Counted from the first letter of the stretch, positions 3,966 to 17,977 are shown. The stretch is DNA of 64,000 nucleotides from Bdellovibrio sp. KM01 (GCF_013752535.1 NZ_CP058348.1:2604001-2668000), one strand, 5' to 3'. A program made the numbers and translations. The notes: generated by a model from the letters alone, not told the origin.

Positions 3966-4032
3966 ATTTTCACTTCATCCAGATTTTTTTGAAAACTTAC
4001 AATCTCAATTCACAGCTTTGGAGGCGTTTTTC

Positions 4033-4638
4033 ATGTTCAAAATTATTTCCAGCTTAATCGGACTTTTCATGGGCTCAGGATCTCCTTTTGGTAAAAGTAT
4101 GGGTATCGACTTTAAAGGCATTCAAGCCAGTGTCTTCGATGAACTCGCCGTCAGAGCCCGCAAACCCGTACTCCTTCTGTTGCTGGGAATAGGTTCGATC
4201 GTATTCTTTTGCTTTGGTTCTTTTATGGCGATCCTGGATGCCACTCGTCAATATGATCGCAGCGGTCACATCTATGCGACATCAACTCTTTGGACCGGCA
4301 TCATTCTGGCTGCCGTAACGGCTGGTGGATATGCCTGGATCTTTATGCGTGAGTGGCCTGGACTTAAAAAAGTTCATGCTCAAAAAAGAGCGGAAGAAGA
4401 AGCCCTGGAGCGCGAACGCGAGCAGCAAGCCAACTCCCATCCGTCCGATATCGAGGGCGCGATTGCTGCGATCCTTATGGATTTTGTGGAAAGTCGTCGA
4501 AGCAAACGTGAAACTCGCTATGCCGAGCGCGAACAACGTCGCGCGGAACGCCAAGCGCGCCGAGAGGCCCGCTTTGAGCAACGCGAAGCCTGGAGAAACG
4601 AACAAAGTTCATCCTCTCAAGAACCGCCACGTCATTAA
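4033..4638 (+). CDS. Membrane protein with two TM segments and a basic coiled-coil tail
   Basis: The start chosen is the ATG at 4033, with a GGAGGCG ribosome site about 8 bases upstream; a TTG at 4018 is the only alternative. The 201-residue product has an N-terminal hydrophobic patch, two transmembrane helices (around residues 43-65 and 85-105) and then a highly charged Arg/Glu-rich helical tail that should lie in the cytoplasm. The layout resembles YqjE/holin-III type partners of YqjD proteins, but I see no diagnostic motif. The stop codon overlaps the stop of the convergent lipoprotein gene within a shared TTAA. Confidence 0.75.
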   Translation: MFKIISSLIGLFMGSGSPFGKSMGIDFKGIQASVFDELAVRARKPVLLLLLGIGSIVFFCFGSFMAILDATRQYDRSGHIYATSTLWTGIILAAVTAGGYAWIFMREWPGLKKVHAQKRAEEEALEREREQQANSHPSDIEGAIAAILMDFVESRRSKRETRYAEREQRRAERQARREARFEQREAWRNEQSSSSQEPPRH

Positions 4639-5591
4639 TAGTTTTTATATAAGCGCCAGCCCTTCACCACAGCTGTGAAGCTGGCGCCACTGGATGAGTT
4701 CAACAAAGAACCCGAAAAGACGTAATTAACAGGATCCACAGTCGTCACATTGGACGTCTCAACAGGCACATCGAACTGAAATTGTTGACGCTGCTTCTGC
4801 GAAATACCGATCAATGGATAGTACGTGAAAATATCAAAGCCGTTTCTGTGAGTTCTGAAACTTAAAGAACTTCCCGGTGGCAAATCTGAATCCGCAAAGA
4901 AAACAATTTCTAAAGTCGCTTTCGAAGCCTTGGTTGGAACCAACGGATCCATTTGCAAATAAGTGGAGCTGCGATCGTTCTTATTAAAGCGGTAATCTTT
5001 TTCCGTCAGTGGCGCGTTCAAATAAATGCATTCGCCATTACCGACGTCACGAAAGCGCATGATCTCACCGCTAAAAACTGCGATAAACCACAACATCTCA
5101 CTTTTTTGCGTATAGCCTGCCGGTAAAACCGGAGTGCCGCCCGAAGGTGTTCCTAATAGCGCCATCCCCGTGCCGTCGGCTTTCGCGATGACATAAATAT
5201 CAAGGCCTTTGGTAAAACTACGCCCCAGATTTCTGTCAATGCCACCAGCACCAACAGTTCCTAATTGCAAACGTAATGACCCTGTAATGGGGAGTGTGTT
5301 GAGACTTTGCGGACCTTGCATAATTACTGAAGGCGCAAGACCAAAGCCTTTTAAACGTAAAGTCGATTTGTCATAACGATCGAACGTCAAACCCCACTGA
5401 CTGTAGGCATTAGAGTTGATGACGGTGATTTGATCACCACCTTGGGCAGACTTGCCAGCAGTGGAGGGGCCCAAGCTATCGACGAGGGCCTTTTTTTCTT
5501 GAGGTGTAAGACTAACAGGTGCGGGAGCTTCCTTTTTTGTACACGCAGCGAAGCACAACACAGTTGCCAATACTAAGATTATTCGATTCAT
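4635..5591 (-). CDS. Lipoprotein, companion of prepilin (cassette copy 1)
   Basis: The ATG at 5591 is preceded by GGGGAG 5-6 bases upstream; a GTG at 5603 is in frame but contains that ribosome site. The 318-residue product has a signal peptide ending in a lipobox (CFAAC), so it should be lipid-anchored. The mature protein shares a pattern with the gene at 6466-7287: a D/E-x-YVI strand, a G-x-P-V-L-P turn, then RFRDVGNGECIYLN against PFKDMGDGEFMYLF. This points to paralogy. It lies 31 bases downstream of a prepilin gene and ends the operon. The function is unknown; a role with the pilin-like protein is inferred from position only. Confidence 0.78.
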   Translation of the reverse strand: MNRIILVLATVLCFAACTKKEAPAPVSLTPQEKKALVDSLGPSTAGKSAQGGDQITVINSNAYSQWGLTFDRYDKSTLRLKGFGLAPSVIMQGPQSLNTLPITGSLRLQLGTVGAGGIDRNLGRSFTKGLDIYVIAKADGTGMALLGTPSGGTPVLPAGYTQKSEMLWFIAVFSGEIMRFRDVGNGECIYLNAPLTEKDYRFNKNDRSSTYLQMDPLVPTKASKATLEIVFFADSDLPPGSSLSFRTHRNGFDIFTYYPLIGISQKQRQQFQFDVPVETSNVTTVDPVNYVFSGSLLNSSSGASFTAVVKGWRLYKNY

Positions 5592-5622
5592 TGAACTCCC
5601 CACCTACGCTCAAGTATAATTC

Positions 5623-6462
5623 TTATTTACTGCAAGAGCCACCGGCTCCGCCGCCATCGCCACCGCCGTCTTTACCTTGACCGCCGCCGCCACCATCTCC
5701 GTCACGACCGTTACCATCGGAACCGCCGCCCGTACCGCCGTTGCTTGCGACCTTCATACAGATCACTTTTCCGGCAGTGTCGACGCCCGTCATATAAGAA
5801 CCCGTTTCGCAGATAAGATCTGCCGAGGCCTCAGTGACCGTGCCAGTGACAATCGTTGAGTTATTATTCTGATTTATAACGTTGTTCGTTACTTGGGTGT
5901 TGTAGTAACTTGCCAACGCAACCGTCACAGTGTCTGTGATCGGACGAAGCTCAACACCTCTCGCTTTGGATAAATCCGTGTGATAGTCGATTTGCACGAA
6001 GACATTCATCGCCTGCGCTTTTGGACAAGATGCCACAGCGGTAGCACCACCACAGATCAACTGCATTTGCGAAGAGATTTTGAGTGGGCAGGATACATTC
6101 CACTCTTTACAAGGTTTCCCCTGGAGATCGTAATAAACATTCTTACCTGAAAGAGGCACACCCAAGGCATCGACTAATTTAAAGTCTGACTTGGTCGTCG
6201 AGCAGTTGTTCGTGTTTAAGCAAGTGCTTAGGACCGGATTTTCCGTCAGCATCGCGCTTTTCAGAATTGCCGCACCATTGATGGCGTTCATGCGCACTTG
6301 ATTACGCATGGACTCAACACCACTTTTGGCTGAATACACAGAAACATCTTTCTGCATTTTCACCATCAGCGTTGTCATGACGATGGAAAGGAGTGCTACC
6401 AATCCCGTCGCAACCAAAACCTCTACCAATGTAAAACCCTTACTTGATAACTGGTTTCTCAT
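5623..6462 (-). CDS. Type IV prepilin-like protein with Gly/Asp-rich tail (cassette copy 1)
   Basis: The N-terminus MRNQLSSKGFTLVEVLVATG is a class III signal: basic leader, Gly before the cleavage site, Phe1 and Glu5 of the mature protein, then a hydrophobic helix. It should be processed by prepilin peptidase PilD and assembled in a type IV pilus or pseudopilus. The body has several Cys pairs. A C-terminal block with a C-x6-M-x-GVD-x4-K-x-IC pattern is shared with the prepilin at 7297-7968. The final 40 residues are almost only Gly, Asp, Ser and Asn. Start supported by GAGGTGAG. The upstream gene stops 3 bases earlier. Confidence 0.88.
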   Translation of the reverse strand: MRNQLSSKGFTLVEVLVATGLVALLSIVMTTLMVKMQKDVSVYSAKSGVESMRNQVRMNAINGAAILKSAMLTENPVLSTCLNTNNCSTTKSDFKLVDALGVPLSGKNVYYDLQGKPCKEWNVSCPLKISSQMQLICGGATAVASCPKAQAMNVFVQIDYHTDLSKARGVELRPITDTVTVALASYYNTQVTNNVINQNNNSTIVTGTVTEASADLICETGSYMTGVDTAGKVICMKVASNGGTGGGSDGNGRDGDGGGGGQGKDGGGDGGGAGGSCSK

Positions 6463-6465
6463 AAC

Positions 6466-7287
6466 TCACCTCGCGGAATAATTTCGCGTTGTTTTAAGTT
6501 CTAAAATTCTAAATTTAAAATCAGTCATAGGAACATCGGCATTCACGACATTCAGGGTATTTTCATCCACCGCCAGATTCGGAACATCTTTCACCACGGA
6601 AATCACCTGTCCCGATTTCGCAGCCATCGGGACATAAAAGCGAACCACTTCTTGTCCGTCTGCGGAATTAAGGGCAATCCAGCCTGGTTTGCTTAAGCTT
6701 GATGTCAGCATCAAACGGAATTCCACTTTGATCGAGCCCATATTCTGCGGAACTCTGTCTTTTATTGAAAACTGCTTGGAGATTGCTTTGAAGCCATCAT
6801 AGCCCTGTTGGAACAGGTACATGAACTCGCCATCACCCATGTCTTTAAAGGGTTGAATGGCGCCGTTTTTAACTTCGAAAGCACCCAGAGATTCACTTCT
6901 TAAAACGTAGAATTCCGGCAATATAACCTGCGACCCCATCGGCGCCATGATCAACTTGGCATTCTTGCCGAACTCTTGAGAAATCACGTACAACTCAACT
7001 CCACCCGAATAGTTAGAAGGAGCAGAACGCAATACACCTGAAGTTAAGAAATGATCTGAAAGCTGGGCACGCAGTGGGCGCTGAAGCAAAATCGAAAGAA
7101 TTTGCTTTTTGCCTAAGACAGCCACTTCAGATAATTTACCCGTTGGCAGCAAATCCACGGTATTGCCCGTTTGCTGAAAGCGGAAGCCTCGCTGTTGAAA
7201 GCCTTTGCCATTAACAATTAATGCGTGGCTCACGGACGTGAACATCGCAAAAACAGTCAGAATGGATAAAACTTTAAAACACTTCAT
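6466..7287 (-). CDS. Exported companion of prepilin (cassette copy 2)
   Basis: This 273-residue protein has a clear Sec signal peptide (MKCFKVLSILTVFAMFTSVS) and no lipobox. Its central region parallels the lipoprotein at 4635-5591: VELYVIS, PMGSQVILPEFYVL, and IQPFKDMGDGEFMYLF. The two therefore look like diverged copies, one soluble or surface-associated and one lipidated. It sits between two prepilin genes, with gaps of 3 and 9 bases, so it is surely co-transcribed with them. No recognised domain. A function in assembling or capping a pilus-like fibre is inferred from context. Confidence 0.78.
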   Translation of the reverse strand: MKCFKVLSILTVFAMFTSVSHALIVNGKGFQQRGFRFQQTGNTVDLLPTGKLSEVAVLGKKQILSILLQRPLRAQLSDHFLTSGVLRSAPSNYSGGVELYVISQEFGKNAKLIMAPMGSQVILPEFYVLRSESLGAFEVKNGAIQPFKDMGDGEFMYLFQQGYDGFKAISKQFSIKDRVPQNMGSIKVEFRLMLTSSLSKPGWIALNSADGQEVVRFYVPMAAKSGQVISVVKDVPNLAVDENTLNVVNADVPMTDFKFRILELKTTRNYSAR

Positions 7288-7296
7288 AAGCTTTCT

Positions 7297-7968
7297 CTAA
7301 GCGCAAATCGCTTTGTTATTCACTAGATCCACACCACGCATCAATTGGCCACCAGGACAAGTCAGGTTTTTAATACTTTTATTTCCTTCTTGGGATCCAG
7401 ACAAAGGCAACAAAGAGGTTTCAATCACTTCACGAAGTCCATAGGCTGCTACCTTGTTCGCGATGCCTGGGAAAATTTCGATCTTGGTCACCAAGTAGAC
7501 CCCACCCGCATAAATGCATTGAGGGGCGCCACGGTTGCATACAGCTTTTGCAACCGCAGAAACTTTGAATGGACATTGCGCACTCCAGGGAGCACAGGCA
7601 GTTCCTTTATAAGTATAAAAAGAATTTGGCGAAGCGACAGGCTTGCTGTTCGGTAGCGCCAGAGAAAAATCCACCGTCGTGCCGTTCACACATTTTGCAG
7701 TTCCTAAAATACAATCTTTGATTCCGGCATTTTCAGGAAGAGTGGCGCTGTAGTTCACCGCCACACGGTTCAGGGCCAGCATTCGCACATTGCCTTTAAG
7801 CTCTTCCAGCTCGGCGCGGTTTTTTACCACTTCTAATTGCTGAGTCATTTGGTACATCTGAGTCGCAAACAAATAGCCGCCAACGCTTACGAGGCCGATC
7901 ACCACCATAAGCTCAACAAGAGTCATCCCCTTGTTATTCAACTTTTTAGTTTGCACGTTCTTGAACAC
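7297..7968 (-). CDS. Type IV prepilin-like protein (cassette copy 2)
   Basis: The start is a GTG at 7968 preceded by a GGGGGG tract. The leader is longer (about 14 residues) and ends KLNNKG before MTLVELMVVIGLVSVGG, with Glu5 conserved. Met rather than Phe is the first mature residue, as is common in minor pilins. The 223-residue protein has several Cys pairs and ends with a CPGGQLMRGVDLVNNKAIC block that also closes the structured part of the prepilin at 5623-6462. It lies 23 bases downstream of the propeller gene and 9 bases upstream of its companion. Confidence 0.87.
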   Translation of the reverse strand: MFKNVQTKKLNNKGMTLVELMVVIGLVSVGGYLFATQMYQMTQQLEVVKNRAELEELKGNVRMLALNRVAVNYSATLPENAGIKDCILGTAKCVNGTTVDFSLALPNSKPVASPNSFYTYKGTACAPWSAQCPFKVSAVAKAVCNRGAPQCIYAGGVYLVTKIEIFPGIANKVAAYGLREVIETSLLPLSGSQEGNKSIKNLTCPGGQLMRGVDLVNNKAICA

Positions 7969-7991
7969 AATCCCCCCGGATTGATTTCCAA

Positions 7992-9305
7992 TTAATTCGC
8001 TGACAGACGGATCACGCTTCCGTACTCCATGTTTATAAAAATATTATTTTTATAAACCGTCGGAGCGCCCGTCATAAAACCTTTAACTGTCCATGTTTTT
8101 ATAACTTTGCCGTCCTGGGCACGCATCAAACACAACTGATTCATTTCGCACATTTGCAAAAATGCCCATTCGTTTTCGGAAACACGAACAGCCGTTGCGC
8201 TCTGAAGATTGAGAGCTTTGGAGTCGAAAATCTCGTGTGACCACAAGACTTTACCCGTGCCCATATTGTAAACAACAAAGCCCGATTTTTCACCATGATA
8301 GTTAATCCCAATGAGAGAACTACCAGGAACGATTGCAGGCGAAGACTGACTCACTCCGGGAATTTTCACCTGCCAAACAGGCTTTAATGTTGTCAAGTCC
8401 ACCGCCTCAAATCGAGAACCCCACGAAGAGAAGAATAATTTCCCGTCGGCAATAGTCGCAGTTCCCTTCATCGCGCCACCCGCATCACCCGTCCATAGCA
8501 AGGCACCGGTATCCATGTGAAAAGCAAACATCCGACCGTTGTTGGCTCCAACAAAAACACGACGATGTTCGGGATCCAAAGTCACGCTCGAATGAATTTG
8601 CTCCCCCACCCACGGACTTTGCCATTTGATTTCACCCGTCGTTCCGTTAAGGCGCGCGATATATCCATTCACATCAGAAGTTTCGATAGAAACGAAGAAA
8701 TCGTTTTCAAAAAATGTCGGTGAAGATCCCATGGCCTCGGCCAAACGAATAATCCAAATCGGCTCACCGCTTGATTTCTTCAGACAATAAAAGAAACCGT
8801 TGTAAGAACCAAAGCACACGCGGTCCTTGATCAGGATCGCAGATCCGTGAATTCCGTTGTCAGTTCGTGAAGTGAAGAACTTCCAGCGCACTCTTCCGTC
8901 CAGCTCAAACGCATAAAACCAACCGTCATCACCACCAACATAAATACCGGAATCATCCACCGCTGGCGTTGCTTTGCTGGCACGATGGACGGAATAGTTA
9001 ATTTCCTCGGAGGACCATTGAACTTTCATGTTTTGAAAGTTTTTTAAAATCTCGTTCGAATATCCCTGGCGATAGACATTACCCCGATACATCCAGGTCA
9101 CGTCTTGATCGGTCAGAATCTCACTGCTGATTCCCGATGTTAATTGCGGAACCATGCGATAAGTGCGTGACGGGCTGCCATCGTGATAGATCGAAGAACT
9201 TTGTTTGGCCAGAGTCGGCAGATTCAATAGCACGAAGCCGCCAAAGCAGATCGTGAAAGCCGCGAATAGAGTCCACTGCATAAGGGCGCGTCGTGATTTT
9301 ACCAT
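7992..9305 (-). CDS. PQQ-type beta-propeller protein, membrane anchored
   Basis: The 437-residue protein begins with a single transmembrane helix (LFAAFTICFGGFVLLNLPTL) and continues with repeating blades of the PQQ-enzyme/BamB type: PAVDDSGIYVGGDDGWFYAF, IKDRVCFGSYNGFFYCL, VFVGANNGRMFAFHMDTG and similar W-containing strands. No dehydrogenase active site is visible, so it is more likely a scaffold than an enzyme. The ATG at 9305 overlaps the stop of the upstream gene by 7 bases; a GTG at 9314 is an alternative. Its place before two pilin cassettes invites comparison with propeller adhesins such as PilY1, but that is speculative because there is no PilY1 sequence signature. Confidence 0.82.
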   Translation of the reverse strand: MVKSRRALMQWTLFAAFTICFGGFVLLNLPTLAKQSSSIYHDGSPSRTYRMVPQLTSGISSEILTDQDVTWMYRGNVYRQGYSNEILKNFQNMKVQWSSEEINYSVHRASKATPAVDDSGIYVGGDDGWFYAFELDGRVRWKFFTSRTDNGIHGSAILIKDRVCFGSYNGFFYCLKKSSGEPIWIIRLAEAMGSSPTFFENDFFVSIETSDVNGYIARLNGTTGEIKWQSPWVGEQIHSSVTLDPEHRRVFVGANNGRMFAFHMDTGALLWTGDAGGAMKGTATIADGKLFFSSWGSRFEAVDLTTLKPVWQVKIPGVSQSSPAIVPGSSLIGINYHGEKSGFVVYNMGTGKVLWSHEIFDSKALNLQSATAVRVSENEWAFLQMCEMNQLCLMRAQDGKVIKTWTVKGFMTGAPTVYKNNIFINMEYGSVIRLSAN

Positions 9306-10504
9306 TGGATCCACTCGTTTCGCCCGAAAGAATTGAACTGATAATTTCCGGTGCAGAAATCTTTGATATTTACAATTTCTTTAAACTCCGCATCGGTCTG
9401 ACGTCGCACCATCAAACTTAGACGGACATTTTTAAAATCCGGCTGGTCTTTTAAGGACTCGCAGGCCGCTTTCGCTCTAGAGAAATATAAATACGGTTCG
9501 CAGCGAATGCGCATGGCTGAAGGCTGAAGGCCCGAGGCAAATTCCTCATAGCGATCTTTGTATTCGGCGATCATGATGTGATCACACTCCACACGAGCGT
9601 CGTACATGTTCAAAGAAAGTACACGCCCCTCGCCAGTGACGGCAGCGTCTTTACTTAAAAGCAGCGGATAAAACTGGGCCGCCCAGAAAAGCAGAACCAC
9701 AGTGACCAGGGCCCAGTGCGTGTCTTGATTTTTAACTTCAGCCTTACTGGAAGCTTCTCCCCAAATCCAGCTCAAAGGAAAGATCGGAAGCAAGCATGAC
9801 ATTGTCGTCGGATAATAATATCCGACCCAATACCAGGACGAGGCATGGAATAAAATAAAAAAACCAAAAACTGTCCAGGCCATCCAGGAGCGACGCCCCA
9901 GCAAGAACCAGCTTAAGCCAACTTCCAGATAAATTACCGCCGAGCAGGCAATGACCACCAACCATGAAGGCCAAGTACCAACATCATAAATTGCTCCACC
10001 GGTCATCCATTCCAAATTGCGCAGCTTCAGCAAACCGGCCGCGCAATAGAAGGTCACTATCAGAACTTTGATGAAAATTTCTTTTCGAGGAAAAAATAGA
10101 TAAACGATGCCGATGATGAACGGCATGTAGTGATAGTTCCCCATCAATCGATAGTCGATCAGCAAGAATCCATACTTCACCAGGAACAGTGCGATCAGTC
10201 CAAAATAAGCGAGCCGCACTCGTCCCTTCAACATCAGGATGAAAATAGCAATGGCCAAACCCAAGTAAGCCCACAAAGACACCATCGCAGCGGTTCTATT
10301 AGGAAATCTCCAGAAGGAGCAATCCTCCATAAAAGACCAGCACAACGGTGACGGCGCATTGTTCATGTAAAAATCAAATGCAACGTTGTGGTTCCAAAAA
10401 TAGAAAGTTAGGAAATGAACGACCACCAGGAAAAATCCATAGATGCGCAACACACGGCTGTGCTGAATTTCTTCGATTTGGCGGTTTAGGTAGTTCAAAA
10501 TCAT
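9299..10504 (-). CDS. Polytopic membrane protein, HTTM-like
   Basis: A 401-residue protein with about eight to ten hydrophobic helices over the first 290 residues and a soluble C-terminal domain of about 110 residues with four cysteines. The segment FYCAAGLLKLRNLEWMTGGA with nearby conserved His and Trp resembles the HTTM domain, which relates to vitamin K-dependent carboxylases. I cannot confirm the Lys/His residues needed for that chemistry. The start codon overlaps the preceding stop as ATGA, and its end overlaps the propeller gene, so all three are tightly coupled. The soluble tail should lie on the opposite side of the membrane from the N-terminus or on the periplasmic face, which is inference. 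Confidence 0.7.
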   Translation of the reverse strand: MILNYLNRQIEEIQHSRVLRIYGFFLVVVHFLTFYFWNHNVAFDFYMNNAPSPLCWSFMEDCSFWRFPNRTAAMVSLWAYLGLAIAIFILMLKGRVRLAYFGLIALFLVKYGFLLIDYRLMGNYHYMPFIIGIVYLFFPRKEIFIKVLIVTFYCAAGLLKLRNLEWMTGGAIYDVGTWPSWLVVIACSAVIYLEVGLSWFLLGRRSWMAWTVFGFFILFHASSWYWVGYYYPTTMSCLLPIFPLSWIWGEASSKAEVKNQDTHWALVTVVLLFWAAQFYPLLLSKDAAVTGEGRVLSLNMYDARVECDHIMIAEYKDRYEEFASGLQPSAMRIRCEPYLYFSRAKAACESLKDQPDFKNVRLSLMVRRQTDAEFKEIVNIKDFCTGNYQFNSFGRNEWIQW

Positions 10505-11094
10505 TTACTTGCCTGATAGGTCCCAGAGTGTTGTTTCACTGGTGCGCCGGTGCAGTTTTCGAAGGTAGTGCCAACCAGAACAACTTTGTTCCAATCGATA
10601 TTTTCAAACTTACAATTTTTAAACTTGGAGAAAATAATGCTCGCACCTTTCAGCTTCACCCCGTCCCAATGCACATTTTCTAAGGAGACGCTATCCATTT
10701 GCATGGCGCGGGCATCGACATCGGTAAAGCGCACGTCTTTTAAAACGGATTGCCTGAAGTGCGCCCCGCGCAAGTCGACGTGGGAAAGTTTCACGTCACT
10801 AAAGCGATAGTCCGTGAAATAGGCGCGGGTGAATTCACTGTGCTTGATATTCAAACGATCCCAACTGCCATGCAGGAAATTTACATTCCCCGTTTTTAAA
10901 GTTTCGATATTTTGATCTTTGAAGTTTTCTTCGAACAAAGTGACTCGGCCGAATTCGCCGCCACTGCGAAATTTCGCAACGATTTCATGAGGTGCTTTCA
11001 GGCGATCTTCGGGAGCACAAAAGGCGTCGGCCAACACCACTTGCGATGTGAAATTCAAAACACAGACGGCTAGCAATGAAAGCGACCGGATCAT
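10501..11094 (-). CDS. Exported pentapeptide-repeat protein
   Basis: The start is the ATG at 11094, placed because it begins a signal peptide (MIRSLSLLAVCVLNFTSQV) and has a GGGGGA ribosome site. The 197-residue product carries repeated A/S-x-F-x-x and V-x-L-x-x units (SEFTRAYFTDYRFSDVKLSH, VDLRGAHFRQSVLKDVRFTD), which fold as a right-handed quadrilateral beta helix. Most pentapeptide-repeat proteins are cytoplasmic; an exported one is likely structural. It is the first gene of the tightly spaced operon that ends with the pilin cassettes. Confidence 0.82.
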   Translation of the reverse strand: MIRSLSLLAVCVLNFTSQVVLADAFCAPEDRLKAPHEIVAKFRSGGEFGRVTLFEENFKDQNIETLKTGNVNFLHGSWDRLNIKHSEFTRAYFTDYRFSDVKLSHVDLRGAHFRQSVLKDVRFTDVDARAMQMDSVSLENVHWDGVKLKGASIIFSKFKNCKFENIDWNKVVLVGTTFENCTGAPVKQHSGTYQASK

Positions 11095-11234
11095 GTATTC
11101 CCCCGCAGATATTTTATGCCATTTCACAGAGCGAAAGAATGACTTTTCCAAATATCGGGGGTGGAGTCCAGTTGGGATCTCGAACTGAGACACTGAGATA
11201 AACAAAGGTTAATCGGGAGTAATAATTTGTGCAG

Positions 11235-11543
11235 CTAAACCACGACTTTAATCGCGATAAATACAGCCACCCCTGCCAGGATCAGAAGTCCTGCCATAAA
11301 GGCAAGGTCTGCGATTTTTTCCAGTGCGCGATATTTTCCTGATCGCAGACTCGCATAGGAACAAACACTCGAAATCAAGAAAATCACAATCGTCACGGCC
11401 GTGCACTCATCCAGGATCGTTGCTTCTGTTTTATCCATAAAATGCGCCATGGAAAAAATAAGAAAACAGATCCCCAGCAGATTCGCCGAGGTGGGTAAGA
11501 TGTGATTGGCTACGGATTCTTTGGTATTATTTAAGTCACTCAT
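11235..11543 (-). CDS. Small membrane protein with three TM helices
   Basis: The ATG at 11543 overlaps the pdxH stop as ATGA, so translation is coupled. The 102-residue protein contains three hydrophobic segments (ANLLGICFLIFSMAHF, TAVTIVIFLISSVCSY, AFMAGLLILAGVAVFIAI) separated by short charged loops. I recognise no family. It should be an inner-membrane protein. A link to pyridoxal metabolism is suggested by gene order only. Confidence 0.72.
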   Translation of the reverse strand: MSDLNNTKESVANHILPTSANLLGICFLIFSMAHFMDKTEATILDECTAVTIVIFLISSVCSYASLRSGKYRALEKIADLAFMAGLLILAGVAVFIAIKVVV

Positions 11544-12130
11544 GGAGAGCGCATGAAGGTCTTCCACGTGCCTTCTTCAGTTCGTTGATATACAAATCGT
11601 TCATGCAGACGTCCATTGTGGCCGAACCAGAATTCGATTTCAGTTGGAACCACCAACCACCCGCCCCAATGAGGTGGACGAGGCACCGGTTGACCCTCAA
11701 ACTGTTTTTCATACTCTTGCACGCGACGGGCAAGATGATTGTAATCTGGGATTTCTTCGCTTTGATTGGACGCCCAAGCACCGATTTGACTTAAGCGAGC
11801 GCGGGTTTTCCAGTACGCATCGCTTTCTTCGGGATTCACTTTTACAGCCATTCCCGTCACGCGCACTTGTTGCCAGATTGCTGGCCAATAGAAATTCAAG
11901 CACACATTCGGGTTGTCCTCGATATCGAGGCCCTTGTGGCTATGGTAGTTCCCAAAAAAAACAAAACCCTCTGGAGTTCTGTCTTTCATATAGACAATTC
12001 TCACAGAGGGAATGCCCCTATCATCCACAGTCGCAACTGACATTGCATTTGCCTCTGGGATTTGTTTTTCGATCGCCTCTTTAAGAAGGCGATCGAAATG
12101 AAGATAAGGGTCAATAGTTAGATCAAACAT
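11540..12130 (-). CDS. pdxH: Pyridoxamine 5'-phosphate oxidase
   Basis: PdxH oxidises pyridoxine or pyridoxamine 5'-phosphate to pyridoxal 5'-phosphate with FMN and O2. The 196-residue protein shows the family motifs in order: AMSVATVDDRGIPSVRIVYM (FMN site), FVFFGNYHSHKGLDI, NVCLNFYWP, QVRVTGMAVKV, the RLSQIGAWASNQSE substrate loop, and the terminal PPHWGGWLVVPTEIEFW with HNGRLHERFVYQR. The length is slightly short at the N-terminus compared with E. coli, as in many bacteria. The final residue pattern is intact. It is cytoplasmic and overlaps a small membrane-protein gene. Confidence 0.96.
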   Translation of the reverse strand: MFDLTIDPYLHFDRLLKEAIEKQIPEANAMSVATVDDRGIPSVRIVYMKDRTPEGFVFFGNYHSHKGLDIEDNPNVCLNFYWPAIWQQVRVTGMAVKVNPEESDAYWKTRARLSQIGAWASNQSEEIPDYNHLARRVQEYEKQFEGQPVPRPPHWGGWLVVPTEIEFWFGHNGRLHERFVYQRTEEGTWKTFMRSP

Positions 12131-12135
12131 CGTTA

Positions 12136-12837
12136 CTATTTTTTAGCTTTTGCAGCTGGTTTTTCAGCTTTAACGATATCCATCAATTCAACTTCGAAAA
12201 CTAGAACTGAATTTGGTGGGATACCTGGGCGGCCTGAAGGACCGTAAGCAAGTTCTGGTGGGATGAAAAGTTTAGCTTTAGAGCCAACTTTCATCAATTG
12301 AAGAGCTTCTGTCCAACCTGGGATAACGCCACCAACTGGGAATTCAGCTGGTTGACCACGGTCGTATGAAGAGTCGAATTGCTCACCGTTCGTCAAAGTA
12401 CCTTTGTAGTGTACTTTTACTACGTCTTCTTTTTTAGGTTGAGCGCCAGTGCCTTCTTTTTCGATGATGTATTGAAGACCAGAAGCCGTTGTTTTTACAC
12501 CAGCTGCAGATTTGTTTTTCTCAAGGTAGTCTTTACCAGCTTTAGCGTTTGTTTCAGCAGCTTCCTGCTGTTTTTTCATCGCCATTTCTTGAAGTTTCAT
12601 CATCGCTGCTTGCATGTCTTCTTTAGTCATTTCGTTTTTGCCAGCAGAAGCATCTTTCAAAGCCTGCGCCAAAGCGTCAGAATCGAAATCGATGTTTTGT
12701 TGTTTCAAGTTGCCACCGATTTGTTGACCAATAGCGTATGACGCTTTTTTGATATCAGTGTCCAACTTTACTTTTCTAGTGCAGGCAGTAGATGCAGCAA
12801 GTGCAACAACAAGGCCTCCAAGTACTAACTTATTCAT
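12136..12837 (-). CDS. FKBP-type peptidyl-prolyl isomerase, lipoprotein (FkpA/Mip-like)
   Basis: The start is the ATG at 12837 with GGGGAGATA upstream. The 233-residue protein has a signal peptide ending in STACTRK, a weak lipobox (Ser rather than Leu at -3), so lipidation is likely but not certain. An N-terminal dimerisation domain with YAIGQQIGGNL and a Lys/Gln-rich helix precedes a classic FKBP domain: VKVHYKGTLTNGEQFDSSYD, FPVGGVIPGWTEAL, and PPELAYGPSGRPGIPPNS. This is the Mip/FkpA architecture. Such proteins isomerise proline bonds and act as chaperones for envelope proteins. It lies 5 bases upstream of pdxH. Confidence 0.93.
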   Translation of the reverse strand: MNKLVLGGLVVALAASTACTRKVKLDTDIKKASYAIGQQIGGNLKQQNIDFDSDALAQALKDASAGKNEMTKEDMQAAMMKLQEMAMKKQQEAAETNAKAGKDYLEKNKSAAGVKTTASGLQYIIEKEGTGAQPKKEDVVKVHYKGTLTNGEQFDSSYDRGQPAEFPVGGVIPGWTEALQLMKVGSKAKLFIPPELAYGPSGRPGIPPNSVLVFEVELMDIVKAEKPAAKAKK

Positions 12838-12975
12838 TCTATCTCCCCATTCAAGGTTGTTAATTTTCACAGACCACATATCTTGCGCTGATTTATGGGA
12901 ATTTCAAACAGATGATGCGTGCTGACACGCGCGTTCTTTCAACGATGTAAGTTTGGCAGCACACCAAGCGCGCTA

Positions 12976-13362
12976 TTAGAGGGGATTTAGGAAGTCTTCA
13001 GATATTGCGCCGTACAGGGTTTTGAAATTTACGGGCTTAGCGATGAAACGCAGTGATCCCTGATCTTCGTTCCCTTTGCGGGAATACGGTGCACTCATCT
13101 CGGTACAGATATAGATTTTTACGCGGGGAAACTTTTTTTGAACGACTTTGAGTAATGCAAGCTCGTCCATGTCGGGAGCTGTGACTTTAGAGATCACCAA
13201 CAGCACCGGCGAGTTGCCGAAACCTTGTAGCTGCTTGATACATTCTTGGGCATTTGCTGCGAGATGAAAATTGAAGTTCAGCGCAGAGTTATTCTGCGAC
13301 ATCTCCTGTTTAAACAAATCCAGGAGTGCTGGTTCGTCATCTACGAACAACACATGAACCAT
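12976..13362 (-). CDS. Stand-alone receiver-like protein lacking the phospho-acceptor Asp
   Basis: This 128-residue protein is a single REC domain without an output domain. The acidic pair Asp8-Asp9 follows strand 1 (HVLFVDDEPALLDLF), the Thr of strand 4 is in YICTEMSA, and the conserved Lys is in RFIAKPV. The strand-3 position that normally carries the phosphorylated Asp reads LLVISKVTAPDMD, which puts Ser58 there. It may be an atypical receiver that signals without phosphorylation, or Asp64/Asp66 may take part; both are inference. It is monocistronic. Confidence 0.85.
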   Translation of the reverse strand: MVHVLFVDDEPALLDLFKQEMSQNNSALNFNFHLAANAQECIKQLQGFGNSPVLLVISKVTAPDMDELALLKVVQKKFPRVKIYICTEMSAPYSRKGNEDQGSLRFIAKPVNFKTLYGAISEDFLNPL

Positions 13363-13629
13363 CTAATCTACACTCCGACTTTCCAATGAAATTATGGCCT
13401 TACGCGACCCACTACAAAAGTGTGCTCTGCGTTGCATAAATCAGCAAGCGTTTCTTACTATTTATGATTCTTAACTTCGAAAAAACTCGGGAAAATACAG
13501 ATATTTGACTCCCCTGAGCAGATTTCAAAGAGGGTCTGTCAAGCACCCGTCCCAACCTGAGATATTCATCGTGTCTGATTGCCTCAAAAGGACAAATTCC
13601 TGCACAATAAGACTAAAGGAACTCATATT

Positions 13630-14028
13630 ATGCTCAGCCTGCTTTTACTGTTCAGTTTAGTGAATCCATCGTATGCGCAGTCCAAAATCAAGAAACCCAA
13701 CACCAATATCTATGAAGCGGAACCCTCTGAGGAAAAGCCCAAATCCTTCTCGGCGAAAGTGCGTGTGGTGCGGGATATTTCAGACGAAGTGGAAGTATTC
13801 TTTGATTCCGATGAAGCACGCGGAGCTTACACTTTACCACGCAAAATTTCGGGTTACGCAACGGTGTTAAAGACCTTGCAGGATTCTGAAAAACCAGGTG
13901 GCCCCCCAGTGGCGGTAACAGCGGACTCAGAGAAAAGAATTCTGAGTGTGGAAAAAGGCGCTTCCAGTTCCGGTTCCGGCTATAAAAAGAAGAGCCCGTA
14001 CGATCCCGGCGAGATTCCTGACATCTAG
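13630..14028 (+). CDS. Hypothetical exported protein
   Basis: The start is the ATG at 13630, preceded by AAAGGAAC, which places a compact signal peptide (MLSLLLLFSLVNPSYAQS) at the N-terminus. The 132-residue product then has a charged mature region with an IYEAEPSEEKPKSF stretch, an acidic EVEVFFDSDEARG segment and a Ser/Gly-rich KGASSSGSGYKKK linker near the end. No domain recognised. It ends 48 bases before an OmpR-type regulator and may be transcribed with the two-component genes, so a periplasmic sensing role is possible but unproven. Confidence 0.72.
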   Translation: MLSLLLLFSLVNPSYAQSKIKKPNTNIYEAEPSEEKPKSFSAKVRVVRDISDEVEVFFDSDEARGAYTLPRKISGYATVLKTLQDSEKPGGPPVAVTADSEKRILSVEKGASSSGSGYKKKSPYDPGEIPDI

Positions 14029-14076
14029 CATTACCCATACTTGCCATCCCAGAGGACAAGTGAGACTTTTTCTGTC

Positions 14077-14766
14077 ATGCGAATTCTTGTCGTTGAAGAT
14101 CAAGTTAAAATGGCTAACTTCCTGAAAAAGGGATTGAACGAAGTTGGATATGCTGTCGACATCGCGGAAAGCGGAACGTCGGCGGAGTCCTACATGGCTC
14201 AAGGCGATTATGACTTGGTGATTTTGGATGTCATGCTGCCCGATCAAAACGGTATCGATACTGCCAGACATCTTCGTCGCGACGGATACGCGGGTCCCAT
14301 TCTGATGGTCACCGCTCTTTCGACAACAAAAGACAAAGTAAACGGCCTGGATGCTGGCGCCGATGACTATCTGACCAAACCCTACTCCTTTGATGAACTT
14401 CATGCCCGCGTTCGCGCCTTGCTTCGTCGCAAAGGCTCCGCGAATGGTGGAACTGCCATCACTAATATTTTAAAATATGCCGACCTGGAGTTGGATCTTT
14501 TGCAACGTAAAGTGCGCAGATCCGGCCAGGAAATTTCCCTGACCACGAAAGAGTTTGCGCTGCTGGAATACTTCATGCGCAATCCCGAACGTCCTTTGGG
14601 CCGTGTCTCGATAGCGGAGCATGTCTGGGATATTCACTTTGATTCCGAATCCAACGTAATCGACGTGTATATCAATCTTTTGCGTAAAAAAGTCGATGCT
14701 CCCTTCAACAAAAGACTCATTCACACCGTGGTAGGGACTGGCTATGTTCTTAAAGAGTCTCCGTAA
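14077..14766 (+). CDS. OmpR/PhoB-family response regulator
   Basis: A 229-residue regulator: receiver domain (residues 1-120) with the acidic pair in ILVVEDQ, phospho-acceptor Asp51 in LVILDVMLPDQNG, Thr in MVTALST and Lys in YLTKPYSFDEL; then a winged-helix DNA-binding domain with LTTKEFALLEYFMRNP and SNVIDVYINLLRKKVD. The start at 14077 is the ATG directly before the first strand; upstream codons lack a ribosome site. It overlaps the histidine kinase gene by 23 bases. It is closest in style to the CusR/QseB-like group, by impression only. Confidence 0.93.
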   Translation: MRILVVEDQVKMANFLKKGLNEVGYAVDIAESGTSAESYMAQGDYDLVILDVMLPDQNGIDTARHLRRDGYAGPILMVTALSTTKDKVNGLDAGADDYLTKPYSFDELHARVRALLRRKGSANGGTAITNILKYADLELDLLQRKVRRSGQEISLTTKEFALLEYFMRNPERPLGRVSIAEHVWDIHFDSESNVIDVYINLLRKKVDAPFNKRLIHTVVGTGYVLKESP

Positions 14767-16201
14767 GTTTTTTGCAAATTTAAGTCTGCGGGTGCGCCTT
14801 TCATTGATTTTCGTGGTGTTCTTTGGAGCCACGACAATCCTTTTCAATATGTTTATCTTTAAAATGTCGATCGATAATCTGCAGCAGGATTTCGACGATG
14901 CTCTTTTCAACTATTCCGTCGACGTTTCAGAAGGTGTGGAAATTGGGGTTAAGGGTGACTTGAACTTTCCTCCTTTGCGCTTGGATCACGGTAAAATCCT
15001 GCCCTTCCCCTTGGGCACGGCGTTGATTCAAGTTCGTCACAGCTCGGGAGCAGTTCTTGCCCGCGTGGGAAATTTCGGCGAGTTTAATCCTCCTTATAAA
15101 AAAGATTTTGAACGCATTTGGGCTGGTGAAGAGGCAACCTATCGTACGATTGAACACATTCACAACATCCCTTCCGCCGAAGCCGATTCTTATCGTCTTA
15201 TTTCTTTTCCGTTGGATAACGTCGCAAAACCGCAACTGTTACTGCAAATCGCCGTTCCGATGACCTTGCTTGAAACGCAGATCAGCAAACGGCTGACTCT
15301 TTTAGAAGTTGGTATTCCCATCGTCCTGTTGTTTGCGACTTTGGGTGGTTTGTTCTTGTCGGCCCGCGCGTTGGCGCCAGTGAATCACATGATCGACATC
15401 GCTAAAAAAATCAAAGCCAGCGAACTTTCCAGTCGTGTTCCGATTCCGGCTGCGAATGATGAAATTAAAAAGCTCGCTTTAACATTAAATGAAATGCTTG
15501 ATCGCATCGAGCAGGCATTTCAATCCCAGGAACGGTTCGTTGCCGACGCATCCCATCAGCTTCTGACACCTCTAACGATCATGCGCCAGGAAATTGAACT
15601 TTTAAAGTCGGAAAAGCAAATTGACGTGGATCAATACACCCGCAGCGCTTTGCAGGAGGTCGATAACCTTGCCAACATCGTTCAAGAAATGTTGCTTTTG
15701 GCTCGTGCGGATGCGGGTTTGGGTGCGCTGAGTCTGCAAGAAATTTCACTGGAAGAATTGGTCTTTGAAGCCCTCACTCGCTGCGAAAAACTGGCAAACT
15801 CCAAAGGCATCAAACTTAAATTCAACATCAACAATGAATCAAAAGCCGATCGCAAATCCGTGCGTGGCGATAAAGATCTGCTGGAAAATTTAGTTTTTAA
15901 TATCATTGAAAATGCGATCAAATACTCTCCGAACAACGAAGTGGTTACTATCACGCTAGTTTGGAAAGATGATGTCAGCCAACTCTTTGTCCAAGATAAT
16001 GGTCCAGGAATTCCTGATGACAAATTACCTTTCATCTTCGAACGCTTTTCTCGGGGAGCGGCCGTTGAAAATCGCGTCAAAGGATTCGGCTTAGGTCTAG
16101 CTATTGCACAAAAGATCGCGAATCTTCACGAAGCTAAGCTCAGTGCTGGCAATAACGAGAGAAACGGCGCGATATTTTCTTTCGAAATTAAAAACATTTA
16201 A
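14744..16201 (+). CDS. Sensor histidine kinase, partner of the upstream regulator
   Basis: The 485-residue inner-membrane kinase has a first TM helix near residues 16-39, a periplasmic sensor of about 150 residues, a second TM helix near residues 185-208, a HAMP linker, a HisKA domain with the phosphorylated His271 in ADASHQLLTPL, and an HATPase_c domain (NIIENAIKYS, VQDNGPGIPDD, GFGLGLAIAQKIA). The usual HQLRTPL motif has Leu instead of Arg. The ligand is unknown. The gene overlaps the regulator gene by 23 bases, which argues strongly for a cognate pair. Confidence 0.93.
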   Translation: MFLKSLRKFFANLSLRVRLSLIFVVFFGATTILFNMFIFKMSIDNLQQDFDDALFNYSVDVSEGVEIGVKGDLNFPPLRLDHGKILPFPLGTALIQVRHSSGAVLARVGNFGEFNPPYKKDFERIWAGEEATYRTIEHIHNIPSAEADSYRLISFPLDNVAKPQLLLQIAVPMTLLETQISKRLTLLEVGIPIVLLFATLGGLFLSARALAPVNHMIDIAKKIKASELSSRVPIPAANDEIKKLALTLNEMLDRIEQAFQSQERFVADASHQLLTPLTIMRQEIELLKSEKQIDVDQYTRSALQEVDNLANIVQEMLLLARADAGLGALSLQEISLEELVFEALTRCEKLANSKGIKLKFNINNESKADRKSVRGDKDLLENLVFNIIENAIKYSPNNEVVTITLVWKDDVSQLFVQDNGPGIPDDKLPFIFERFSRGAAVENRVKGFGLGLAIAQKIANLHEAKLSAGNNERNGAIFSFEIKNI

Positions 16202-16288
16202 TCTGTTTTTAATCATGGTTTTAACTCCCTTTGCTACGCTGATCATGTTTCCGATTAAGGAAAACATTAAGAACCACTTGGAGGTTTT

Positions 16289-16510
16289 ATGAAATTGGTA
16301 TCTCTAGTATTGTCTGTTGTATTCGCTGGTGTTGTTGCTCAAGCTAACGAAGCTGCTCCAGCTGCTGCTACTACAGCTCCTGCTGCTGCAACTACAACTG
16401 AAGCTGCTCCAGCTGCTAAAACTGAAGCTAAAGCTGACAAAAAAGCTGCTAAAAAACACGGCAAAAAAGCTGCTAAAGAAGAAGTAAAAAAAGAAGAAGC
16501 TGCTCACTAG
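16289..16510 (+). CDS. Small exported Ala/Lys-rich protein
   Basis: A 73-residue protein with a signal peptide (MKLVSLVLSVVFAGVVAQA) and a mature part made almost only of Ala, Thr, Lys and Glu: first an AAPAAATT-type stretch, then KKAAKKHGKKAAKEEVKK. Low complexity prevents assignment. A strong TTGGAGG ribosome site and a perfect terminator at 16543-16571 support it as a real, probably well expressed gene. Similar Ala/Lys-rich secreted peptides bind acidic polymers, which is only an analogy. Confidence 0.75.
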   Translation: MKLVSLVLSVVFAGVVAQANEAAPAAATTAPAAATTTEAAPAAKTEAKADKKAAKKHGKKAAKEEVKKEEAAH

Positions 16511-16542
16511 TTTGAGTACTTCGAGCTTTTTTGCTCTTAGTT

Positions 16543-16571
16543 AAAAGGGAACCCTCGGGTTCCCTTTTTTT
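16543..16571 (+). terminator. Rho-independent terminator after the Ala/Lys-rich gene
   Basis: AAAAGGGAACCC at 16543-16554 pairs perfectly with GGGTTCCCTTTT at 16557-16568 around a two-base loop (functionally a 4-base loop), and the stem ends in a T run to 16571. Confidence 0.93.
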
Positions 16572-16578
16572 ATGCCAA

Positions 16579-16668
16579 AAAAAGGTACGGACTTACTTTC
16601 TCCCAAAGACACAGGTTTACTTGATGTAGTTCCTGATTTTTCGGGAGAAAGTAAGTCCGTACCTTTTT
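16579..16668. repeat. 26-bp perfect inverted repeat with 38-base loop
   Basis: Bases 16579-16604 (A5 then GGTACGGACTTACTTTCTCC plus one C) are an exact inverted copy of 16643-16668, separated by 38 bases. It lies between two convergent genes, after the terminator at 16543-16571. In both directions the structure ends in a T run, so it could terminate the minus-strand transporter gene, but stem and loop are longer than usual for a terminator. Confidence 0.9.
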
Positions 16669-16690
16669 CCTTCGGGTTCCCCCTTTTTTT

Positions 16691-17977
16691 TTACAGAACC
16701 CATAGGCAAAAAATTGCCACGGCTGTTGGCGCAAGTGCTGCAACCAACAAATTCAACGGCTTAATTCCGCCCGGAAATTTATGACTTAACACCGAATAGC
16801 CTGCAGCATTCGGAGCGTTCGCGATAATTGTTAATCCCCCGCCCGCCAAAGCTCCTGCCACCAAGGCATATTTACTGGAATCAGAAAGATCGACTTGAGA
16901 CCCCAAGTACGTCAAAGCTGCGTTGTCAGTAATCGCTGTTAACAGTGCCGCTCCTTTAAATAAAACAGCATCATTCATTTTACTCAACAAAGGTGCGAGC
17001 CACCATTTTTGGAAGGAACCAAACTGTATGATCCCACCCAGAAATAAAGAGACCAACAGACTTTCTTTTAATCGTAAAGAATCTTGATAACGAATCGTCA
17101 CAGAGGCTACCCCAAGGAATAACAGGAAAATTCCCAGGAAGGCATTGCGATGATGTCCGGTGATGACGATTCCAGCAAGAAACAAAAGATGAATCACGAT
17201 CACTTGCCAAGGAATAGTTGCATGAGAATGCGCCAGACGTGTCTCAACCTCTTTCAAAGTGATGCATCCTTCTTTGAATTCTTTGCGGAAAATCAAAACC
17301 AGACCGATCGAATTGATGATGACGGCGATGGCCGACTTCCAACCGAAATGTGTGGCGACGAAAGAAAAATCCCATCCCCATTTGGATGCAACCATCAAAA
17401 TAGGTGGAGCTGCGAAAGGTGTGAGTGCTCCCCCAATAGAAACATTGACGAATAAAACCGCAATCAAGGCATAGATCAATTTATTCGATTCTTTTTGCAG
17501 CATTGCATTTAGCATGAATGCTGTCACAGTCATCGCTGCTGGCTCCGTAATAAAGCTTCCAGTCAACGGACCTAAAATCAAAACAACGGCAAGATCCGTT
17601 GATACAGCTGGAGTTTTAAAAACACGCTGAACTCCCGAACTGATGGCCAAAATCGTCTGGCGAGCCACAGTCAATACCGGGCGAGTTGAACACACCACCA
17701 TGATCGCAAAGATAAAGAACGGCTCCGTAAAATCCAAAGAGTTCTGATATGTGATAGCGGGAGTCCAACCTTCCAGGGCAATGTAAACCGCCATGAAAAG
17801 ACTGGCCCAGATCGCAAATACGACTTCGATTTCACCCAAAAGATGCAATACTCCACGCATAAGGGAGTCTTTCGGAAAATGATGAGACCAGTGCAGAATT
17901 TTCCCGACAAGGAATGTGTGAATAACTGCAAGGGCAAAAAATGCGGTACCAATAAGCTCAAGTGTTGTGTACGTCAT
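16691..17977 (-). CDS. Putative Na+/H+ antiporter family membrane protein (ion transporter superfamily)
   Basis: The 428-residue protein has about eleven to twelve transmembrane helices. Two re-entrant-type motifs stand out: VLILGPLTGSFITEPAAMTV near residue 140 and GGALTPFAAPPILMVASKWG near residue 190, with a related LLTAITDNAALTYLGSQ and GGLTIIANAPNAAGYSV in the second half. This two-fold pattern fits the ion-transporter superfamily and the Pfam putative Na+/H+ antiporter family (PF07399). Transported ion is not known. The ribosome site is weak. It ends convergently with the Ala/Lys-rich gene. Confidence 0.82.
   Translation of the reverse strand: MTYTTLELIGTAFFALAVIHTFLVGKILHWSHHFPKDSLMRGVLHLLGEIEVVFAIWASLFMAVYIALEGWTPAITYQNSLDFTEPFFIFAIMVVCSTRPVLTVARQTILAISSGVQRVFKTPAVSTDLAVVLILGPLTGSFITEPAAMTVTAFMLNAMLQKESNKLIYALIAVLFVNVSIGGALTPFAAPPILMVASKWGWDFSFVATHFGWKSAIAVIINSIGLVLIFRKEFKEGCITLKEVETRLAHSHATIPWQVIVIHLLFLAGIVITGHHRNAFLGIFLLFLGVASVTIRYQDSLRLKESLLVSLFLGGIIQFGSFQKWWLAPLLSKMNDAVLFKGAALLTAITDNAALTYLGSQVDLSDSSKYALVAGALAGGGLTIIANAPNAAGYSVLSHKFPGGIKPLNLLVAALAPTAVAIFCLWVL

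Follow-up and report, generated by a model that had tools for sequence, protein, structure and literature searches.

A duplicated prepilin cassette with phage-fibre-like companion proteins in Bdellovibrio, a candidate source of pilus-tip adhesins

Prepilins and exported companions at the locus

The window analysed here is a stretch of 64,000 nucleotides, positions 2604001-2668000 of the 3.96-Mb single-contig genome of Bdellovibrio sp. KM01. Its minus strand carries four tightly packed ORFs, transcribed in the order prepilin A, companion A, prepilin B, companion B and separated by 3-31 bp. A first-pass annotation had read two prepilins here, each followed by an exported companion, and all four ORFs were found where it had placed them.

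Prepilin A (7297..7968, minus strand, 223 aa) has the leader NNKG/MTLVE and a Cys-rich globular domain, while prepilin B (5623..6462, minus strand, 279 aa) has the leader SSKG/FTLVE, a Cys-rich domain and a Gly-rich C-terminal tail. Both contain the class III signal, i.e. Gly(-1), a hydrophobic stretch and Glu(+5), and both match Pfam N_methyl above its cut-off (24.1 bits in A and 21.9 bits in B). The two proteins are similar over their whole length (E 2e-24, 27% identity across 236 aa). The end block that had been noted as common to them, C-x2-G-x2-M-x-GVD-x2,3-(G/N)K-x-IC, is indeed present in A and B. However, similar motifs are found in other prepilins of the phylum, so the block alone is no marker of duplication, whereas the whole-length match is.

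In the AF2 model of prepilin A (pLDDT 70) a long N-terminal helix (residues 17-66) is followed by antiparallel strands, and the protein is, as modelled, a pilin. Its top structural match, the minor pseudopilin XcpW/GspJ, has a Z of 4.7, which is weak and within the range of noise. Prepilin A shares invariant cysteines with more distant prepilins of the genus, several of which have collagen-like or Gly-rich tails and lipoproteins of other families downstream.

Companion A (6466..7287, minus strand, 273 aa) starts with an ordinary Sec signal peptide ending in SHA, and a two-domain tip module comes straight after it. In companion B (4635..5591, minus strand, 318 aa) the lipobox FAAC, with a Thr after the Cys, is followed by a linker of ~40 residues and then by the two-domain module; its start is ATG, with a GTG at 5603 as a possible alternative. 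These signals agree with the earlier suggestion that one companion is soluble and the other a lipoprotein. Compared directly, the companions are homologous (E 1e-14, 29% over 136 aa; 5e-12 in the genome search), most clearly in the first, better conserved domain. Neither has a match in Pfam, NCBIfam or PHROGs.

Three more genes of the same array lie upstream on the same strand. The first gene of the array encodes an exported pentapeptide-repeat protein (10501..11205; PF13599, 63 bits). It is followed by a multi-pass membrane protein (9299..10504), which matches no Pfam model and overlaps the next gene by 16 bp, and by a PQQ/BamB-like beta-propeller protein (7992..9314; PF13360, 100 bits), whose gene ends 23 bp before prepilin A. 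Across all seven genes the gaps range from -16 to +31 bp, which looks as in one operon; promoter and terminator scans gave results at chance level. No Tad genes were recognised when the neighbouring ORFs were read.

We also considered the membrane protein as a part of the cassette and rejected it, as its family is widespread without the cassette and is missing from one of the cassette-bearing species, G022. Members of this family often occur in two copies ~5-6 kb apart within one genome. No PQQ/BamB-like ORF lies beside the G022 cassette either.

Fold and carriers of the companion module

The AF2 model of companion B, built on 12 sequences, shows two beta-sandwich domains with pLDDT about 91 for the first and 80 for the second (overall pLDDT 77, pTM 0.75). 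The first domain, phage-fibre-like and the best conserved part, is encoded at 5016..5438 (minus strand; model residues ~46-165). The C-terminal domain (4635..5057, minus strand) is the one that resembles the tip of the MAT fibre Bd2133, which is its best PDB match with VIA-align: model residues 164-294 align with 909-1031 of 8ond_B (Z 10.8, rmsd 3.4 A, 118 residues). The other Bd2133 tip structure, 8ok3, has Z 10.7, and the next rows, a lambda-type tail-tip protein (8.7) and BcsB, lie about two units below Bd2133. Bd2133 was seen only with VIA-align; Foldseek of companion B against the PDB returned generic beta-sandwich matches only, with E near 1e-3. For the Bd2133 tip fold itself, no PDB homologue was found by DALI (PMC10769870; structures 8ond, 8ok3). 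Among viral models the best matches to the whole companion B module are tail-collar and tail-fibre proteins, spanning both domains (E 7e-13 to 6e-10, TM up to 0.61).

When the PDB was searched with profiles of the whole module, the first domain or the second domain, no credible relative came up by sequence, and neither Bd2133 nor Mtd was reached; the link to Bd2133 is therefore a link of fold. In phmmer the tip module also matched designed armadillo repeats; these matches were rejected, as they are made up of many tiny per-repeat ones. Among phages the module has a single weak match (E 0.03). According to the AF2 model, on which the fold match rests, the fold is recognisable as that of a MAT-fibre or phage-fibre tip. 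That both companions are two-domain beta-sandwich tip modules of this type is well supported, the fold of companion A being assigned through its homology to companion B.

A six-member profile found a third fibre-type relative, and a seven-member profile was searched against 369 genomes of Bdellovibrionota. Eight species carry the module, in three architectures. In the window species, G012 and G022 it is a separate protein after a prepilin. These are three of the 24 species of the genus, the adjacency of prepilin and companion is kept in all three, and the orthologous cassettes are 96-99% identical in G012 and 57-67% in G022.

In three other species (G040, G057 and G118) the module forms the C-terminal tip of lipoproteins of 406, 493 and 644 aa, which have a tail-fibre-like shaft in the middle (PHROG matches at about 1e-12 to 1e-7, among them several called tail fibre). 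For one of these proteins, L012, the PHROG tail-fibre match is to the shaft and the tip alone has no match, while the tip of L011 alone matches a phage family of unknown function, phrog_17105 (E 1e-7). In the 6-19 kb of sequence read around the fibre lipoproteins, no prepilin-like ORF came to light.

Finally, in G342 and G343, which belong to another family, proteins that open with a prepilin signal (GMSLPQ..., GFTLVE..., GFSLIE...) have the module as their C-terminal part (profile E 8e-27). One of these fusions matches N_methyl with 27.1 bits, above the Pfam cut-off, and another falls below it. The fusions stand in tandem, three in G342, of which the middle one is frameshifted, and two in the shorter contig of G343, where the middle one is open. 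Scans of bacterial and viral contigs, of limited sensitivity, found no relatives outside Bdellovibrionota.

This distribution changes how the companions should be seen. They had been proposed as a possible new pilin-associated family, but they do not form one that is exclusive to pilins, as three of the eight carrier species have the module on a fibre lipoprotein with no prepilin seen nearby. By the first-pass annotation's own criterion, homologues regularly found without a neighbouring prepilin, this counts in part against its proposal. A search of other genomes for a constant prepilin link had also been suggested; the link is there in part, by adjacency in three species and by fusion in two, and only the fibre-borne modules of the remaining three are homologues without a prepilin in their flanks. 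Judged from sequence, the connection to pilins is at the same time stronger than could be seen at first pass, because two species from another family have prepilins with the domain fused to them.

Mtd is the receptor-binding protein of a Bordetella phage and the source of the Pfam family mtd_2nd (PF21916). The module's likeness to it lies in matches of mtd_2nd in the first domain of two fibre homologues (L011, 21.5 bits, and L012, 16.9 bits; E 2e-4 to 8e-3), both below the gathering cut-off of 24.6 bits. It differs from Mtd in that it contains no C-type lectin variable domain, and mtd_2nd has no match in the window proteins or anywhere in their own genome.

MATs are defined by a beta-rich domain of ~130 aa after the signal peptide, common to all 21 of them; their tips are displayed on the surface, one binds a prey glycan, and they work without pili (PMC10769870). 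The genome studied here encodes MAT-type S74 fibres of its own, in keeping with a Bdellovibrio-like predator. Companions and MAT fibres are alike in the fold of the C-terminal domain, in export and in predator lineage, and short shaft repeats are common to MATs and the fibre-lipoprotein homologues. However, the companions have no N-terminal ~130-aa domain (no match to that of the genome's own S74 MATs), occur as neighbours of prepilins or fused to them, and contain an extra, phage-fibre-like first domain. A repetitive shaft, present in the fibre-lipoprotein homologues L011, L012 and L032, is also lacking. Without the N-terminal domain and the shaft they fall outside the definition of the MAT superfamily, despite their adhesive-type C-terminal tip.

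Duplication history and genomic surroundings

Tandem duplication of a two-gene unit, as the first-pass annotation had suggested, is borne out by the similarity of both gene pairs and by the trees. In the companion tree as well as in the prepilin tree, both midpoint-rooted and with few relatives included, A and B cluster together, apart from all other relatives (support 99/97 and 95/92), and each copy groups with its own orthologues. This grouping indicates that the two-gene unit was duplicated before the window species, G012 and G022 split, in one duplication and not two recruitments. The stems of copy A are longer than those of copy B in both trees (2.64 vs 0.65 for the companions, 1.56 vs 0.40 for the prepilins). 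The prepilin and the companion of copy A thus changed fast together, as expected of partners.

In four genomes (G011, G020, G005 and G004) the homologues of 4018-4638 and of the pdxH-like 11540-12130 adjoin, about -16 to +16 bp apart, which indicates that the ~6.9 kb at 4639-11539 are extra DNA at this site in the window and in G012. In G022 the cassette lies beside the 4018-4638 homologue, with a different gene on the upstream side. Other members of the genus have tail-fibre-like or MAT genes near this same chromosomal neighbourhood (L107:2-1189, L100:1892-5053), as though surface-adhesin genes had a slot in the region. In G022 no start codon is found between an in-frame stop and the prepilin A signal GLTLVEL (L010:6950-7000), while the remaining frame and companion A are intact. 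This is either a rearrangement that damaged the gene or an assembly fault.

Other prepilin clusters in the genome of the window have unrelated exported proteins after them, and one of these clusters is present in two tandem copies; a prepilin with an exported partner therefore looks like a recurring design in which the partners differ. In L115 (C1:1702000-1721000) a four-gene set is found in tandem copies at 5186-11150 and 11360-17192, and a third set is found in L114. The L115 set encodes a protein of 1066/1023 aa with a pilin-like hydrophobic start, a small pilin-like protein, a prepilin of 332/338 aa and an exported protein of 434/423 aa with a weak EF-hand match. The L115 and L114 sets could be the predicted Kil-like Tip complexes of Bdellovibrio.

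Elsewhere in the phylum, Cys-rich prepilins stand in tandem pairs at L093:5974-9351 (G007) and L084:6192-11250 (G019); they have collagen-like tails, and lipoproteins from other families come after each of them. The collagen repeats would imply trimers at the minor pilin end. Very large modular pilins also recur in Bdellovibrionota, with prepilins of 600-1020 aa, some in tandem, at L089:4841-11110 (G104) and L092:7002-10073 (G084). Membrane proteins near other prepilin clusters gave no HTTM-like match in Pfam.

Possible roles of the companions

Type IV pili are required for prey invasion by Bdellovibrio (PMC3818213), and what the pilus binds is not named in the literature that we searched. It had been stated that no pilus system with such companions is known. 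This has to be corrected, as in CofB-CofJ of the ETEC CFA/III pilus and TcpB-TcpF of the V. cholerae TCP pilus a minor pilin holds a secreted partner, and the TCP pilus exports TcpF (PMC9565799). Our cassette likewise combines a minor pilin and an exported non-pilin partner in the same operon. It differs in being a duplicated pair with a lipoprotein as one of the partners, in that the tip is of phage/MAT fold and is fused to a pilin elsewhere, and in that the docking is putative. A flexible N-terminus of the CofJ/TcpF type docks on a trimeric minor pilin; the mature chain of companion A is nearly all tip module, and the tether of companion B is lipid-anchored.

Besides these pairs, two other systems are the nearest in function, while the head itself comes nearest to MAT tips. 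PilB and PilC of S. sanguinis are modular type IV pilins (PMC8179133), and the fusions of G342 and G343 resemble them, with an adhesin-like module grafted onto a prepilin in one polypeptide; in the window, however, the module is a separate protein, and it is a phage/MAT-type tip, not a vWA or lectin domain. Kil Tip complexes belong to the Tad pili of Myxococcus, and B. bacteriovorus is predicted to have a Tip complex too (PMC12075869). They are alike in being predator minor pilins with variable exposed domains, in several interchangeable sets, but KilL/M/N are minor pilins of a Tad pilus, while here class III prepilins occur with a separate phage-like head. Of MAT-type tips joined to pilins we found nothing in the open-licence literature.

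In our judgement the cassette is probably, though far from certainly, a duplicated unit of minor pilin and tip adhesin, with heads docked on the minor pilins and displayed at the tip of a type IV pilus. Companion A would be exported by Sec as a free protein, and companion B as a lipoprotein on a 40-residue tether. Each head would dock on its partner minor pilin and be delivered to the pilus tip or retained there, in the manner of CofB-CofJ or TcpB-TcpF, and at the tip it would recognise a surface, presumably that of the prey. The copies would have diverged to give two different heads. Companion B may stay at the outer membrane until the pilus picks up the head, or may work at that membrane as an adhesin of its own. 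We infer pilus display from fusion, adjacency and parallel evolution, and likewise infer that the heads dock physically, stand at the tip, are trimeric, bind a ligand and play a role in predation.

What most favours a physical link, as opposed to mere co-transcription, is the fusion of prepilin and head in G342 and G343; the parallel rate change of the copy A genes is a second, weaker argument. Against display on a pilus stands, as its main difficulty, the lipid anchor of companion B; in this the protein is unlike TcpF and CofJ, and it may sit in the outer membrane rather than on a pilus. The domain presumably also works away from pili, in the fibre lipoproteins. Further, the cassette is rare within the genus, and in G022 prepilin A is without a start codon while companion A is intact.

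Alternatively, the companions could be surface adhesins that are short and act independently, related to fibre tips but shaftless, merely co-operonic with minor pilins and not carried by a pilus. The lipid anchor and linker of companion B would suit such a role, as would the fibre-lipoprotein homologues without a prepilin within the sequenced flanks and the MAT tips that function without pili (PMC10769870). However, prepilin-domain fusions, duplication two by two and a matched rate change are not expected of mere neighbours, and companion A has neither anchor nor shaft, so we regard independent adhesins as fairly unlikely, but worth keeping in mind.

The companions could instead be cargo, pushed out by a short pseudopilus of the minor pilins and released to the medium in the manner of TcpF or type II secretion. 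The weak GspJ likeness of the prepilin A model (Z 4.7) and the export of TcpF by the TCP pilus (PMC9565799) point that way. We find this improbable, since companion B carries a lipid anchor, release is impossible for the fused versions, the fold is not enzyme-like and a gsp-type set is encoded separately in the genome (L113). It is very improbable that the companions are assembly factors of the filament, either priming proteins like PilY1 or pilotin-like lipoproteins, with no receptor role. A lipid anchor on companion B and exported partners after prepilins in other clusters of the genome (L114, L115) are compatible with assembly factors, but the fold is that of an adhesive tip, and the companions are missing from most relatives that have prepilins.

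Returning to the reading of heads displayed at the pilus tip, a wider proposal can be made tentatively, and we would not yet bet on it: one phage-fibre/MAT-type head moved among three carriers, namely a fibre lipoprotein, a prepilin fusion and a pilin-docked free protein, and the pili of Bdellovibrionota bear exchangeable phage-like heads that choose the prey. A head of MAT/phage type that is co-encoded and co-duplicated with minor pilins, and elsewhere fused to them, links the MAT and pilus systems. It provides a concrete candidate for the pilus adhesin, with two heads per cassette, and suggests that parts of phage tail fibres have been reused on a bacterial pilus. The pili of this predator, it would seem, can carry interchangeable heads for gripping prey.
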